33,265 nt of DNA from Deltaproteobacteria bacterium (GTDB lineage Bacteria > Desulfobacterota > DSM-4660 > Desulfatiglandales > Desulfatiglandaceae): assembly GCA_021737785.1 (NCBI GenBank), contig JAIPDI010000057.1, positions 1-33,265 on the forward strand. The letters run 5' to 3'. Within the stretch, counting starts at the first letter, position 1, and the number at the start of each line of letters is the position of its first letter. The notes under the pieces were generated by a model. It saw only the letters and a program-made list of their open reading frames with translations. It was not told where the DNA came from and made no database searches. Shown piece after piece: positions 19,227 to 24,034 of this stretch. The position numbers and the translations under genes are program-made.

Positions 19227-19236
19227 CAAGTTATGA

Positions 19237-19377
19237 TGGTCTCGTAAAAAGTCAGGAAATGTCATTTTTCGTCATTCCGGCGAAAGCCGGAATCCAGTCC
19301 CGCAACAGCGGGATTCAATCAGTTAAAAAACCTCTGGACCCCGTTTTTCAACGGGGTGACGACTTTTTACGAATGCA
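19237..19377. mobile_element. MITE-like element, 141 bp, with terminal inverted repeats
   Basis: TCGTAAAAAGTC (19242-19253) and GACTTTTTACGA (19361-19372) are perfect 12-bp inverted repeats near the ends, extended imperfectly outward by TGATG/CATCA. The 11-bp word TCAAGTTATGA is directly repeated on both sides (19226-19236 and 19378-19388), as expected for a target-site duplication, although part may belong to the element. Inside are a CATTCCGGCGAAAGCCGGAATCCAG-type palindrome and a CCCCGTT/AACGGGG hairpin. It has no coding capacity, so it would need a transposase supplied elsewhere. Confidence 0.6.
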
Positions 19378-19515
19378 TCAAGTTATGACGTGAAAAAATC
19401 TAATTTTCAGCCTTCTCTTTTTGGTTGTTTTTGCCAGGCAACATACTCACACCTAATTGAAATATCTTGGACCTTCAAGGGGACCTAAAAAAAACATGTC
19501 AGGAGGGAGGCAAGA

Positions 19516-21075
19516 ATGAAAACAGATCGATTTCGACAAATCCCGTACCTTGTGATCCTAATTGGGCTGGCCTTTGTTTATCAAGGCATCGATTCAGCCG
19601 AGGCAGCCACTTTTTGTGTGACCAACAGCAGTCAGCTCCATGCAGCGCTGGGCACTGCGGAAGACAACGGCGAGGCGGACGAGATACACATCGCACAGGG
19701 GGCCTATACCGGCAATTTCACGTATCAGTCCCAGGAAGCCCTTGCCGTCATGGGGGGATATACGGCTGACTGCTCCTCCAGGGTCCTAAACCCTTCGAAT
19801 ACCGTCCTGTCACGCAATTCTTCAGCGACGATCTTGAGAATCACTATCGAAGGGGACGCTGATTTTGAGTGTGACGGCATTACCTTCCAAAATGGTTCAG
19901 CCGAACGGGGGGGCGGGCTGCGCATAGACTCATGGAATGGGAATGTGACGGTCAGCAACAACATCGCCTATGGCAACCATGCCGCCGAGTTCGGCGGGGG
20001 AATGTATATTTCCTCAGGCGGAACCATCACGCTTTCCCATAACACGATCTATGGAAACGATAGCGATTACTACGGCGGCGGCGCCAGCATCCACGGCGAA
20101 GGCACCCTTGTTTTGACGGCCAATGTAATCAGGGACAACATCGCGGACGGTGCGGCCGGCGGCATACATGCATCCGGCGGCTCCGTATCCGTGATCAACA
20201 ATCTTTTTTATGGTAATTTCGCCACGTGGTATCACGGGGCCGTCCTTGTTGAAGGGGACTCCATCCGGGTCATCAACAATACCATCGCATCCAACTTATC
20301 AGAAGGGTTGGGTGCAGGTCTGACGGTCATGCTAGACCAAGATTCGGACAATGCCGAGATACACAACAACATTATCTACGCCAACAGCGGGTATTATGAG
20401 GGGAATGACCTTTGTATCTTTAACGATCAAAATGAAAACGGCGTTGCATCGCCGGTGAGCCTGCTCAACAACGACTTTGATCAAAGCGCGGCAGGAACCG
20501 ATATCGTCCTCCCGTTTTCCATTGACCCAAGTAACCTGGATAACAGAGACCCGCTGTTTGTCAGTACGGGGACAGGAGACTATCGTCTGACAAAAGGGTC
20601 TCCCTGCATTGACACGGGCACCTCCACGGATGCCCCGGCAACGGATATCAGAGGGACATCGCGGCCCCAGGGTCCGGGGTATGACATGGGCGCTTATGAG
20701 TATGCTGACCCTAAGCCGGACATCAAGGCGAACGGCCAGGATGGCACTTTAGTCGTTACGCAAAGCGATCCGGTCTCGATTACGGTGAGCATGAATCCGG
20801 GCGACATGGCCCAGAGCACCGCCGATTGGTGGATAGCCGTCCACACGCCCCTTGCCTCGCCGGCGAACTGGTATTCGTATGTGTTCCCGACCGGATGGCA
20901 ACCCGGGATCCATATGTGCATCCAGTATCCTCTATTTAGCCTCTCCACCCTGGCGCTGCCTCAAATGTCGTTCGTTTCAGGAGACTACACCTTTTATTTC
21001 GCCGTGGTTCCTCCGGGTGGCAACCCATTAGGGCCCTGGCTCGGGATGGATTTTGTGAAGGTCCAGGTCCAGTAG
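19516..21075 (+). CDS. Secreted parallel beta-helix (choice-of-anchor Q type) protein
   Basis: A 519-residue protein. The signal peptide is residues 1 to about 30 (hydrophobic YLVILIGLAFVY, cleavage near SAEA-A). From about 95 to 330 it has repeats of the pectate-lyase-like helix type (VTVSNNIAYGN, ITLSHNTIYGN, LVLTANVIRDN, VSVINNLFYGN). DYRLTKGSPCIDTG, then DIRGTSRPQG and DMGAYEY (about 355-396), matches the choice-of-anchor Q domain. Residues 402-518 are a C-terminal domain nearly identical to the end of the next protein. No catalytic lyase residues were recognised; a surface or extracellular binding role is likely. AGGAGGGAGG precedes the ATG. Confidence 0.85.
   Translation: MKTDRFRQIPYLVILIGLAFVYQGIDSAEAATFCVTNSSQLHAALGTAEDNGEADEIHIAQGAYTGNFTYQSQEALAVMGGYTADCSSRVLNPSNTVLSRNSSATILRITIEGDADFECDGITFQNGSAERGGGLRIDSWNGNVTVSNNIAYGNHAAEFGGGMYISSGGTITLSHNTIYGNDSDYYGGGASIHGEGTLVLTANVIRDNIADGAAGGIHASGGSVSVINNLFYGNFATWYHGAVLVEGDSIRVINNTIASNLSEGLGAGLTVMLDQDSDNAEIHNNIIYANSGYYEGNDLCIFNDQNENGVASPVSLLNNDFDQSAAGTDIVLPFSIDPSNLDNRDPLFVSTGTGDYRLTKGSPCIDTGTSTDAPATDIRGTSRPQGPGYDMGAYEYADPKPDIKANGQDGTLVVTQSDPVSITVSMNPGDMAQSTADWWIAVHTPLASPANWYSYVFPTGWQPGIHMCIQYPLFSLSTLALPQMSFVSGDYTFYFAVVPPGGNPLGPWLGMDFVKVQVQ
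20719..21075 (+). repeat. Duplicated C-terminal domain, copy A (357 bp)
   Basis: It encodes 118 residues starting DIKANGQDGTLVV and ending at the stop codon. Copy B at 22176-22532 has the same length and differs by eye at 11 of 118 residues. Most of the DNA is identical, including third codon positions. Confidence 0.92.
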
Positions 21076-21089
21076 GGATGCGATTTACA

Positions 21090-21124
21090 GAAGCCGGGTC
21101 GGCAGCCTTGCGGTGACCCGCTTC
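21090..21124. terminator. Hairpin after the beta-helix gene
   Basis: GAAGCcGGGT (21090-21099) pairs with ACCCGCTTC (21116-21124) with one bulged base. It begins 15 nt after the stop codon. There is no T run after it, so it may be a processing or attenuating structure, not a classical terminator. Confidence 0.35.
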
Positions 21125-21233
21125 CTGGAACCCGTCAAAACCGACAACCGTTAGCCGTATGTTTGACAATGGGGGGATCGGCGTTAACTGGATGCCGTGG
21201 CGTTCTTCACAGACAATGACAGGGGGATGGGAC

Positions 21234-22532
21234 ATGAAAGCAAGAGGCTTGATAGTGGCGGCGTTTATCACAGCGGCATTAACCTGGATCATCAGCCCGG
21301 GGATGTGTGCGGCAGACAGCACCCCCCCTGCATCTGTGGTGAAGTTGATCTTCATTCACCACTCCACCGGAGGGAACTGGCTCGCCGATCCCAATGAGGA
21401 GCAACCTTACGGCGGTCTCGGGTCTGCTCTGATGAACAACAACTATTTTGTGAGCGCCACCAACTACGGCTGGGGGCCTGACGGCATCGGCGACCGTACA
21501 GACATCCCCAACTGGCCCGAATGGTTCACCGGTTTGAACAGTACCACGATCCTTACGGCGCTGTATGCAGAAAACAATCAGAATATCGATGGATTCGGTT
21601 CCTGGTCGCGTCTGGCGACCGATCCGGGCGGGGAGAACCAGATCATCATGTTCAAGTCCTGTTTCCCCAATTCCGATCTTTTTGGAGATCCGGATGATCC
21701 AGCCGGGACAGAACCCAATGACCAGTATACGGTGAGCAATGCCAAGGCGGTCTACAACAACCTGTTGACCTACTTTCAGACCCGCCAGGACAAGCTGTTT
21801 GTGGTCATCACCGCCCCGCCCCAGACTCAAAATGCCTACGGGGAGGACTACCAGACGCCCGAGCACCGGGCGGCGAATGCCCGGGCGTTCAATAACTGGC
21901 TGGTCAATGACTGGTTATCGGGGTATCCATACCAGAATGTCTGCGTGTTTGACTATTTTAATGTCCTGACCGCCCAGGACAACCATCACCGGTATTACAA
22001 TGGGGCCATCCAGCATGTGACCAATACAGCCTATAATTTTTCCGCCTATCCCACTGATGAATGGGACAGCCATCCGAACACGGAGGGGCAACAAAAGGCC
22101 ACGGAGGAGTTCGTCCCCCTTCTCAACTACTATTACAATCTCTTTGCGGGCGGCTCCCCTTCAAATCCTGTCCCTGACATCAAGGCGAACGGCCAGGATG
22201 GCACTTTAGTCGTAACGCAAAGCGATCCGGTCTCCATTACGGTGAGCATGAATCCGGGCGGTCTGGCGGGACAGACTGCCGATTGGTGGATAGCCGTCCA
22301 CACGCCCCTTGCCTCGCCGGCCGACTGGTATTCATATGTGTACCCGACCGGATGGCAACCCGGGATCCATATGTGCATCCAGTATCCTCTATTTACCCTT
22401 TCCCCCCTGGCGCTGCCTCAAATGTCGTTCGTTTCAGGAGACTACACGTTTTATTTCGCGGTGGTTCCTCCGGGTGGCAACCCATTAGGGCCCTGGTTGG
22501 GGATGGATTGGGTCAATGTTCACGTCCAGTAG
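21234..22532 (+). CDS. Secreted SGNH/GDSL-like hydrolase with the shared C-terminal domain
   Basis: A 432-residue protein. The signal peptide is 1 to about 27 (LIVAAFITAALTWII, cleavage near MCAA). LIFIHHSTGGNWL (38-50) supplies a candidate nucleophile Ser44. FKSCFPNSDL (140-149) has a candidate oxyanion Asn146, and DEWDSHPNTEGQ (275-286) has the Asp278/His280 pair expected at the end of an SGNH fold. The assignment is by motif order, not by a known close family. Residues 315-431 repeat the C-terminal domain of the preceding protein. The chosen ATG has AGGGGG about 8 nt upstream; the longer frame from 21159 has no signal peptide. Likely substrate: an acetylated or esterified glycan (inference). 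Confidence 0.75.
   Translation: MKARGLIVAAFITAALTWIISPGMCAADSTPPASVVKLIFIHHSTGGNWLADPNEEQPYGGLGSALMNNNYFVSATNYGWGPDGIGDRTDIPNWPEWFTGLNSTTILTALYAENNQNIDGFGSWSRLATDPGGENQIIMFKSCFPNSDLFGDPDDPAGTEPNDQYTVSNAKAVYNNLLTYFQTRQDKLFVVITAPPQTQNAYGEDYQTPEHRAANARAFNNWLVNDWLSGYPYQNVCVFDYFNVLTAQDNHHRYYNGAIQHVTNTAYNFSAYPTDEWDSHPNTEGQQKATEEFVPLLNYYYNLFAGGSPSNPVPDIKANGQDGTLVVTQSDPVSITVSMNPGGLAGQTADWWIAVHTPLASPADWYSYVYPTGWQPGIHMCIQYPLFTLSPLALPQMSFVSGDYTFYFAVVPPGGNPLGPWLGMDWVNVHVQ
22176..22532 (+). repeat. Duplicated C-terminal domain, copy B (357 bp)
   Basis: Same-length partner of copy A at 20719-21075. Conserved words include TADWWIAVHTPLASPA, GWQPGIHMCIQYPLF and GDYTFYFAVVPPGGN. It resembles the all-beta domain with an ADWW signature that I recall from the ends of many extracellular proteins of sulfate reducers. 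Confidence 0.92.
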
Positions 22533-23221: not shown

Positions 23222-24034
23222 GTGGCCGAAGGGAAGGCCTGCGAAATTGTGATTGAACAGGATACGGAAATTATATTCAACAAACAGGTCGCCGCGGGCG
23301 CCTTTTTGATGGGGGTGCGGTCCCCCGAGATTGCGGCGGAGGCCCGACCCGGGCAGTTCGTCATGCTCCGGGTGGGCCAGGGCATGGACCCGCTTTTAAG
23401 GAGGCCTTTTTCCATCTGTGATGCCGTGGACGACCTGGTACTTATCCTCTACCGGGTGGTGGGCCGTGGAACCCGGATCATGTCGGATGCGAGAAAAGGT
23501 GAACGGCTGCAGGTCCTGGGCCCTTTGGGAAGGGGGTTTGCACGTCCCCTCGCAGGACAAGGCACCATTCTGGTGGCCGGGGGCATTGGGATTGCCCCGC
23601 TCCTGTTCCTGTCTCGATGGATGCCGCCGGAAAGTTTTACTTTTTTTGCCGGGTTTGGTTCTGCTGATCAGATTGTCGGGGTCGATGAACTGGGCCTGTC
23701 GGGCATGGCGATATCGATCGCCACGGACGATGGCTCGGCCGGACATCACGGCCTTGTGACGGAGCTTCTGGAAAAGGCAATGACCGGTCTGAGCGGGGAT
23801 CCCGGGATGGTCTTTGCATGCGGTCCGCTCCCGATGTTGAAGGCGGTTATGGCAGTGACCCGTGACAGGAAAATCTCCTGCCAGGTCTCTTTGGAGGCAT
23901 TGATGGCCTGCGGGCTGGGGGCATGTCAGGGGTGTGCGGTGAAGGCGGCGCCCGGACAGGATCGGGCCTACCGGCATGTATGTCAGGATGGACCGGTGTT
24001 TGACGCCACTGATCTGGATTGGGGGGCGCTCTAA
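23222..24034 (+). CDS. pyrK: Dihydroorotate dehydrogenase electron transfer subunit
   Basis: A 270-residue FAD and [2Fe-2S] protein that passes electrons from the FMN of PyrD to NAD. RRPFSI (60-65) binds FAD, LVAGGIGIAPLLFL (117-130) is the NAD-binding start, and ACGPLPM (199-205) is the typical late motif. Four cysteines ligate the cluster: 230, 235, 238 (CGLGACQGC) and 254 (HVC). The GTG start has AAGGA about 5 nt upstream. The protein is complete, in contrast to its expected partner PyrD just downstream. Confidence 0.93.
   Translation: MAEGKACEIVIEQDTEIIFNKQVAAGAFLMGVRSPEIAAEARPGQFVMLRVGQGMDPLLRRPFSICDAVDDLVLILYRVVGRGTRIMSDARKGERLQVLGPLGRGFARPLAGQGTILVAGGIGIAPLLFLSRWMPPESFTFFAGFGSADQIVGVDELGLSGMAISIATDDGSAGHHGLVTELLEKAMTGLSGDPGMVFACGPLPMLKAVMAVTRDRKISCQVSLEALMACGLGACQGCAVKAAPGQDRAYRHVCQDGPVFDATDLDWGAL

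Follow-up and report, generated by a model that had tools for sequence, protein, structure and literature searches.

A domain shared by two adjacent genes

The window analyzed here, a 33,265-nucleotide stretch of a deltaproteobacterial genome (GenBank assembly GCA_021737785.1, contig JAIPDI010000057.1), carries two adjacent genes on the same strand whose predicted exported products, proteins 1 and 2, end in nearly the same domain (Table 1). A preliminary description of the sequence had reported this C-terminal likeness as 11 differences in 118 residues, and alignment of the copies confirmed it, with one extra shared proline extending each copy to 119 residues (357 nt), directly followed by the stop codon. 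Among the 119 codons, 95 were identical, 13 differed silently and 11 differed in the encoded residue (91% residue identity), giving 31 nucleotide differences in all. By blastn the copies were 92% identical over 364 nt, from the start of the domain to 3 nt past the stop codon. The flanks of both copies were unrelated, with similarity falling to chance at once in a 20-nt scan on either side, and the parts of the two proteins preceding the domain gave no blastp match to one another at E ≤ 10.

Table 1. Positions of the two genes and of their parts within the window.
Feature	Position	Strand	Composition or basis
Exported protein 1, 519 aa	19516..21075	+	Signal peptide, beta-helix-like part, choice_anch_Q, shared domain
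choice_anch_Q (NF041518), immediately ahead of the shared domain	20572..20703	+	Residues 353-396 of protein 1
Shared Ig-like domain, copy 1, 119 aa	20716..21072	+	Pair alignment; AlphaFold model, predicted local distance difference test (pLDDT) 96.6
Exported protein 2, ~432 aa	21234..22532	+	Signal peptide, GDSL/SGNH-like part, shared domain
GDSL/SGNH-like catalytic part of protein 2	21315..22172	+	Homologues; sub-cut-off PF00657 in homologues
Second copy of the shared Ig-like domain, 119 aa, sharing 91% of residues with the first	22173..22529	+	Pair alignment

The copy pair had a nonsynonymous divergence (dN) of 0.059 and a silent divergence (dS) of 0.21 by the method of Nei and Gojobori (NG86). 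The silent divergence of the neighboring gene at 23222-24031 was much higher, at 0.87 to G001 and 1.13 to G002, both of the same genus, and 1.59 to G003 of the same family. Codon identity at unchanged residues was 0.605, 0.595 and 0.492 for that gene in these three genomes, and 0.88 for the domain pair, so that the earlier remark that most of the DNA is identical even at silent sites held well (88% of same-residue codons versus 49-61%). Since the dS of the pair lies well below 0.87 and 1.13, the copying is younger than the splits from these sampled congeners, without being of very recent date. Downstream of the pair, the cyclophilin and dihydroorotate genes were kept in order in the G001 and G003 stretches that were fetched, and neither window protein was found beside them; the stretch fetched from G002 stops inside the cyclophilin gene and is uninformative on the window proteins. 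The neighboring-gene stretch, the only one searched in this way, gave no match to plasmids.

The nucleotide differences between the copies were clustered, with 11 of the 31 falling within codons 30-35, and a cluster of 11 differences in 8 codons was attained in 14 of 5000 codon shuffles. This clustering fits a mosaic conversion and also fits local selection. In addition, both window copies, alone among 80 aligned rows of the domain family, have Val in place of Asp101 (model numbering, that is, the alignment number +3), a shared derived state that agrees with a common recent source.

A tandem gene duplication, followed by divergence of the N-terminal parts, would account for two adjacent genes that point in the same direction, but it is a very improbable explanation of the pair. 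The N-terminal parts lack mutual similarity and each has separate homologues, the flanks are unrelated despite a 92% identical domain, the GDSL-like part recurs with other C-termini and the beta-helix part recurs with another C-terminal module. The unrelated N-terminal parts likewise ruled out a duplication of the whole protein.

The two partners had been labeled a beta-helix protein and an SGNH-like hydrolase, and here the evidence was weaker than these labels claim. Protein 1 matched NF041518 above the cut-off (E 1.4e-15), and its match to a beta-helix repeat was below the cut-off. The choice_anch_Q element that NF041518 represents is described by NCBI as preceding various anchors. A Pfam scan of protein 2 itself gave no match for its GDSL-like part at E ≤ 10, and the label comes from homologues, of which L122 (E 4.8e-4) and L088 (E 0.013) matched PF00657 below the cut-off. 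Homologues of this part were found in 10 of 148 genomes, counting the window's own. Its fold model, built from three sequences, was poor (pLDDT 42.9), a Foldseek search with it was meaningless, and a PDB profile search returned no credible match. The open reading frame of protein 2 is open from an ATG at 21159; the ATG at 21234 is the likely start, based on the signal peptide and a purine-rich stretch preceding it, as judged by eye.

Members, partners and positions of the domain family

Searches of the window's own genome identified 11 domain matches at E 1e-13 or better, the best of them beyond the window being 52% identical, and a profile search identified 12 distinct copies, 10 of them C-terminal. 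The domain was present in 9 of 61 genomes (own genome counted), these 9 all belonging to one family, and in 19 of 395 genomes across the phylum, where at most 11 candidates were scored per genome. A scan of named genomes produced 99 relatives, the best 80 of which were retained, and 79 named loci. As these loci were gathered via the single pattern GxY[TVI]FYF[AG][VIL]D, part of the conservation that the 80-row alignment shows at the pattern residues stems from this selection; a 33-row alignment was pattern-free. The contigs were labeled Desulfobacteraceae/Deltaproteobacteria, Nitrospirae, Nitrospinae, Phycisphaerae, Lentisphaerae, Verrucomicrobia and Kiritimatiellaeota, and further loci were labeled Gamma- and Betaproteobacteria, one Patescibacteria metagenome-assembled genome (MAG) and one archaeal MAG. 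The archaeal-labeled locus (L063, Methanomassiliicoccales MAG bin396) has the domain at a C-terminus, with 58% identity to a copy from a deltaproteobacterium, which reflects either transfer or a mis-binned contig.

Removal of domain hits shorter than 90 residues and of duplicate domain sequences reduced the collection from 155 hits to 116; L048, whose frame is broken in the domain, and L001-L004, L118 and L128, which repeat the window, were left out of the counts. No Pfam or NCBIfam model reached its cut-off for the domain in scans of 33 and of 80 members; the best E values overall were 0.0036 and 0.073. Among open-licence PubMed Central papers, which are not searchable by motif, we recognized none that describes it. 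One scan of viral contigs found no relatives and a viral structure library held no structural match at E ≤ 1e-3, and a phage origin of the domain was rejected on these two results. The best explanation of the collection is an unannotated family of about 115 residues, comprising immunoglobulin (Ig)/fibronectin type III (FnIII)-like modules that many bacteria attach to exported proteins as accessories. Ig/FnIII-like accessory domains of exported proteins are known as a kind, of which this family is an uncatalogued example. The domain lacks a Pfam or NCBIfam model and can occur on as many as a dozen exported proteins of one genome; defining it would offer a single point of entry to numerous hypothetical exported proteins.

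Based on the 116 distinct copies, 12 of them in the window's own genome, the domain is attached to many other exported proteins, mostly at their ends: 91 copies were C-terminal (one at an open contig end), 16 were N-terminal, in that the domain starts in the first 90 residues of the frame, and 9 were internal. Four copies alternate with another domain in a 1704-residue frame of G159, where the last copy is C-terminal. Two proteins with a window-type GDSL-like part (L088 and L094) have the domain internally, with one more domain after it. A Lcl_C protein of the own genome carries the domain at its end, and two Lcl_C-similar proteins (L090 and L103, recognized by eye from sequence) carry it at the start. 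A scan of 72 partner parts, 6 of the 78 having been excluded as shorter than 60 residues, identified 75 Pfam families, none in more than 5 members; Glyco_hydro_12 and Sde0182_C were each found in 2 of the 72, and most other partners were not carbohydrate-active enzymes. A hydrophobic 12-residue stretch near the start, a crude substitute for a signal-peptide predictor, was present in 96 of 103 closed frames; among 94 control stretches drawn from these proteins, 8 had one. The partners thus appear to be exported and mostly unrelated.

The C-terminal preference raised the question of sorting. We consider it unlikely that the domain serves at the C-terminus for sorting or surface attachment and is recognized by secretion or anchoring machinery dedicated to it, in the manner of the type IX C-terminal domain (CTD). 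Type IX secretion CTDs have an Ig-like fold and sit at the C-terminus of diverse exported proteins. Consistent with such a role, the partners of the domain are very diverse exported proteins, 91 of the 116 copies end their proteins, and in protein 1 the domain directly follows choice_anch_Q. In the C-terminal class the protein ends 0-20 residues past the domain, mostly 0-3, and the six tails of at least 8 residues are polar. However, the N-terminal, internal and repeated copies (25 of 116 lie elsewhere than at the C-terminus, and four in one protein) and the absence of any membrane segment or basic tail after the C-terminal copies make a C-terminal sorting signal less likely. A cleavable C-terminal tail was ruled out by the same lack of a membrane helix or basic end. 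PEP-CTERM, MYXO-CTERM and LPXTG tails resemble the domain in being C-terminal on many exported proteins of one genome, but the domain is folded and about 115 residues long, and has no motif followed by a membrane helix and basic tail. In addition, no type IX CTD model was among the Pfam/NCBIfam hits of the 80 members at E ≤ 0.1. Exosortase was found in 6 of 9 domain-bearing genomes and in 17 of the 52 without the domain, and it is missing from G002 despite ten domain matches there; there being no strict co-occurrence, a link to exosortase was rejected. A search for SprA found no match in the own genome, and none in any control genome either.

Fold and possible function

The AlphaFold model of the domain is a ten-strand beta-sandwich predicted with high confidence (pLDDT 96.6; predicted template modeling score 0.90). 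Foldseek placed a porphyran-binding module (8wae; E 2e-4) at the top, together with Calx calcium domains, GbpA and RbmA. VIA-align ranked RbmA first (Z 9.4, root-mean-square deviation (rmsd) 2.7 over 98 residues), followed by a mastigoneme protein, a dextranase and CARDB, with the next unrelated rows after RbmA at about Z 8.

The best structural match, the FnIII domain of RbmA (4kkr, 4be6; PF22021), comes from a protein built of two FnIII domains, whereas the domain here is a module appended to enzymes, and PF22021 was matched by 1 of the 80 members (E 0.05, below the family cut-off). RbmA belongs to the Vibrio cholerae biofilm matrix, and its FnIII-2 binds exopolysaccharide (PMC5605196). The shared fold carries no proof of function. 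The porphyran-binding module is a single beta-sandwich of similar size (template modeling score 0.47-0.49 by query), but its Z was only 7.7 with an rmsd of 3.6, and the PDB searches gave no sequence match to it. CARDB (3idu, 2kl6) is also a small beta-sandwich (Z 7.9), but no CARDB was among the Pfam hits of the 80 members at E ≤ 0.1. In being a discrete, non-catalytic, folded beta-sandwich, as predicted by AlphaFold, the domain resembles carbohydrate-binding modules (CBMs) as a class. Two further matches were treated as fold-level noise: a PKD profile match to KIAA0319L, which went from E 2.7e-5 with 33 rows to 0.0027 with 80 rows, and the antibody heavy-chain variable domain matches of a single-sequence search, of which one was left at 33 rows (E 1.9) and none at 80.

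The pattern-free 33-row alignment showed W42, G92 and F96 to be invariant, and D40, W64, Q73, Y94, Y97, F98 and D101 to be at least 90% conserved. On one strand Y97 is flanked by F96 and F98, and another strand has W41 next to W42. Based on this geometry at least one aromatic per strand should face outward.

The explanation we lean towards, without great confidence, is that the domain is an Ig-like accessory domain, probably glycan-binding, that tethers unrelated exported proteins to a common glycan and is copied as a unit bounded by the domain edges. The proteins so attached would include enzymes as well as repeat proteins, and the glycan would be the cell's own exopolysaccharide or a surface polymer. 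Three observations lead to this adhesive, probably glycan-binding reading: the occurrence of the domain at either end of proteins, the exopolysaccharide binding of RbmA FnIII-2, and a CBM in the same seat. The last comes from L121, whose enzyme part is 61-62% identical to that of protein 2 and which has CBM_11 at the same place (31.4 bits versus a cut-off of 27); a family 11 CBM in the domain's seat on a homologous enzyme favors glycan binding. Of the three roles named in the preliminary description (sorting, anchoring or glycan-binding), the general idea of an accessory module stood, the case for sorting from C-terminal position did not, and glycan binding is by inference the best. Both it and a common ligand are presumptive, and surface retention would fit the adhesive and the sorting readings alike.

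Several findings weigh against this explanation. Few partners are clear carbohydrate-active enzymes (Glyco_hydro_12, as noted above), and the strong C-terminal preference is equally expected of a sorting tag. The sequence likeness to RbmA is weak (profile E 0.011), and likeness to the Ig/FnIII fold is common, matches at Z 7-8 including antibodies and a transglutaminase. The near-invariant Asp101 and its loop are missing from both window copies, so their function may differ.

It is possible, though we think it rather doubtful, that the domain lacks a glycan ligand and is a neutral structural Ig-like spacer or serves in docking between proteins, being copied as a stable, recombination-prone segment. 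The Ig-like fold, the tandem copies alternating with another domain and the lack of a single partner class are all consistent with that. However, some of the near-invariant aromatic and Asp positions are probably beyond the needs of the core (a residue set partly ascertained by the pattern), a CBM takes the domain's place on a homologous enzyme, and a terminal position is unusual for a spacer.

Probable copying within genomes and other terminal modules

The more unusual aspect of the domain is the likeness of copies within a genome on unrelated partners. In genomes with more than one copy, the nearest neighbor by BLAST score was in the same genome for 37 of 84 copies, and still for 28 of 84 when related-partner pairs were excluded, compared with a mean of 3.6 and maxima of 13 and 17 in shuffles of genome labels that ignore the relatedness of genomes, the 116 copies not being independent. 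The one-contig genome G121 has six fetched copies with a median identity of 71% and no related partners, and Nitrospirae JdFR-81 has seven copies that reach 91%, with related partners in 1 of 21 pairs. In both genomes the DNA similarity of most unrelated-partner pairs ends about 15-20 nt from the domain edges or spans part of the domain; the exceptions are related-partner pairs and L163/L166 of G121, where similarity continues 86-89 nt upstream. Against this pattern, the other copies of the window's own genome had a median likeness of only 42%, which makes the window pair exceptional there. A different case was seen in the paralogues L046/L047 (BH30), whose partner parts are 97% identical and whose domains are only 86% identical, the domain having changed faster.

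The best reading of these patterns is that the domain has probably been spread and homogenized inside genomes by domain-bounded copying. The suggestion that a cassette was duplicated or converted between unrelated genes in the window is supported by the sharp domain edges, the low silent divergence and the recurrence of this pattern in two or more further genomes. One window copy was probably overlaid on the other, or freshly inserted, by recombination confined to the domain. We prefer gene conversion, with fresh insertion a possible alternative; sharp edges are expected under conversion between resident copies because only the domain is common to them.

The ends of related proteins are also exchanged. 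The closest relative of the GDSL-like part (L119 of G003, 77%) ends in an unrelated two-repeat module, and within the own genome the protein most closely related to the beta-helix part has yet another C-terminal module. The latter, unannotated module (L133:1909-2214 type) is about 85-100 residues long and is marked by the motifs PC..IQ.AI and GGWD..F. The own genome has 9 copies of it (contigs C15, C52, C4, C12, C27, C2 and C67), each 0-17 residues from the protein end, on exported proteins of various kinds. Three of these copies are clustered on C52, next to a protein that carries the Ig-like domain. The module of L119 (L119:2350-2664) consists of two Cys-containing repeats ending in SGLYWKMD-type motifs and has 4 copies on own-genome contig C39:21731-32820, three intact and C-terminal and one broken by a TAG. 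The own genome thus contains C-terminal cassettes of three or more unrelated sets.

We tentatively speculate, while thinking it improbable, that each genome has its own dialect of the domain that serves as an address tag, by which unrelated exported proteins would all bind a single extracellular polymer specific to the strain, with gene conversion confined to the domain keeping its copies matched. Were copies homogenized as the polymer changes, the nearest copies would tend to be from the same genome and on unrelated proteins. The other C-terminal cassettes of the genome may then be parallel addresses. If it is true that the copies bind one polymer and are homogenized for it, they would be a bacterial example, open to testing, of an address domain that evolves in concert on unrelated proteins.

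Two minor observations concern the surroundings of these genes. L122 (G116:C30), a GDSL-like relative without the domain, adjoins a gene judged by eye to be similar to an exosortase gene. Upstream of protein 1, at 19234-19380, is a 147-bp element whose 20-nt ends are imperfectly inverted; it looks like a miniature transposable element or a repetitive extragenic palindromic (REP)-like element. It has 43 matches in the own genome, about 20 of them near full length, and near-full copies also precede domain-bearing genes elsewhere, one on C49 and, at a distance of about 3.4 kb, those on C4.

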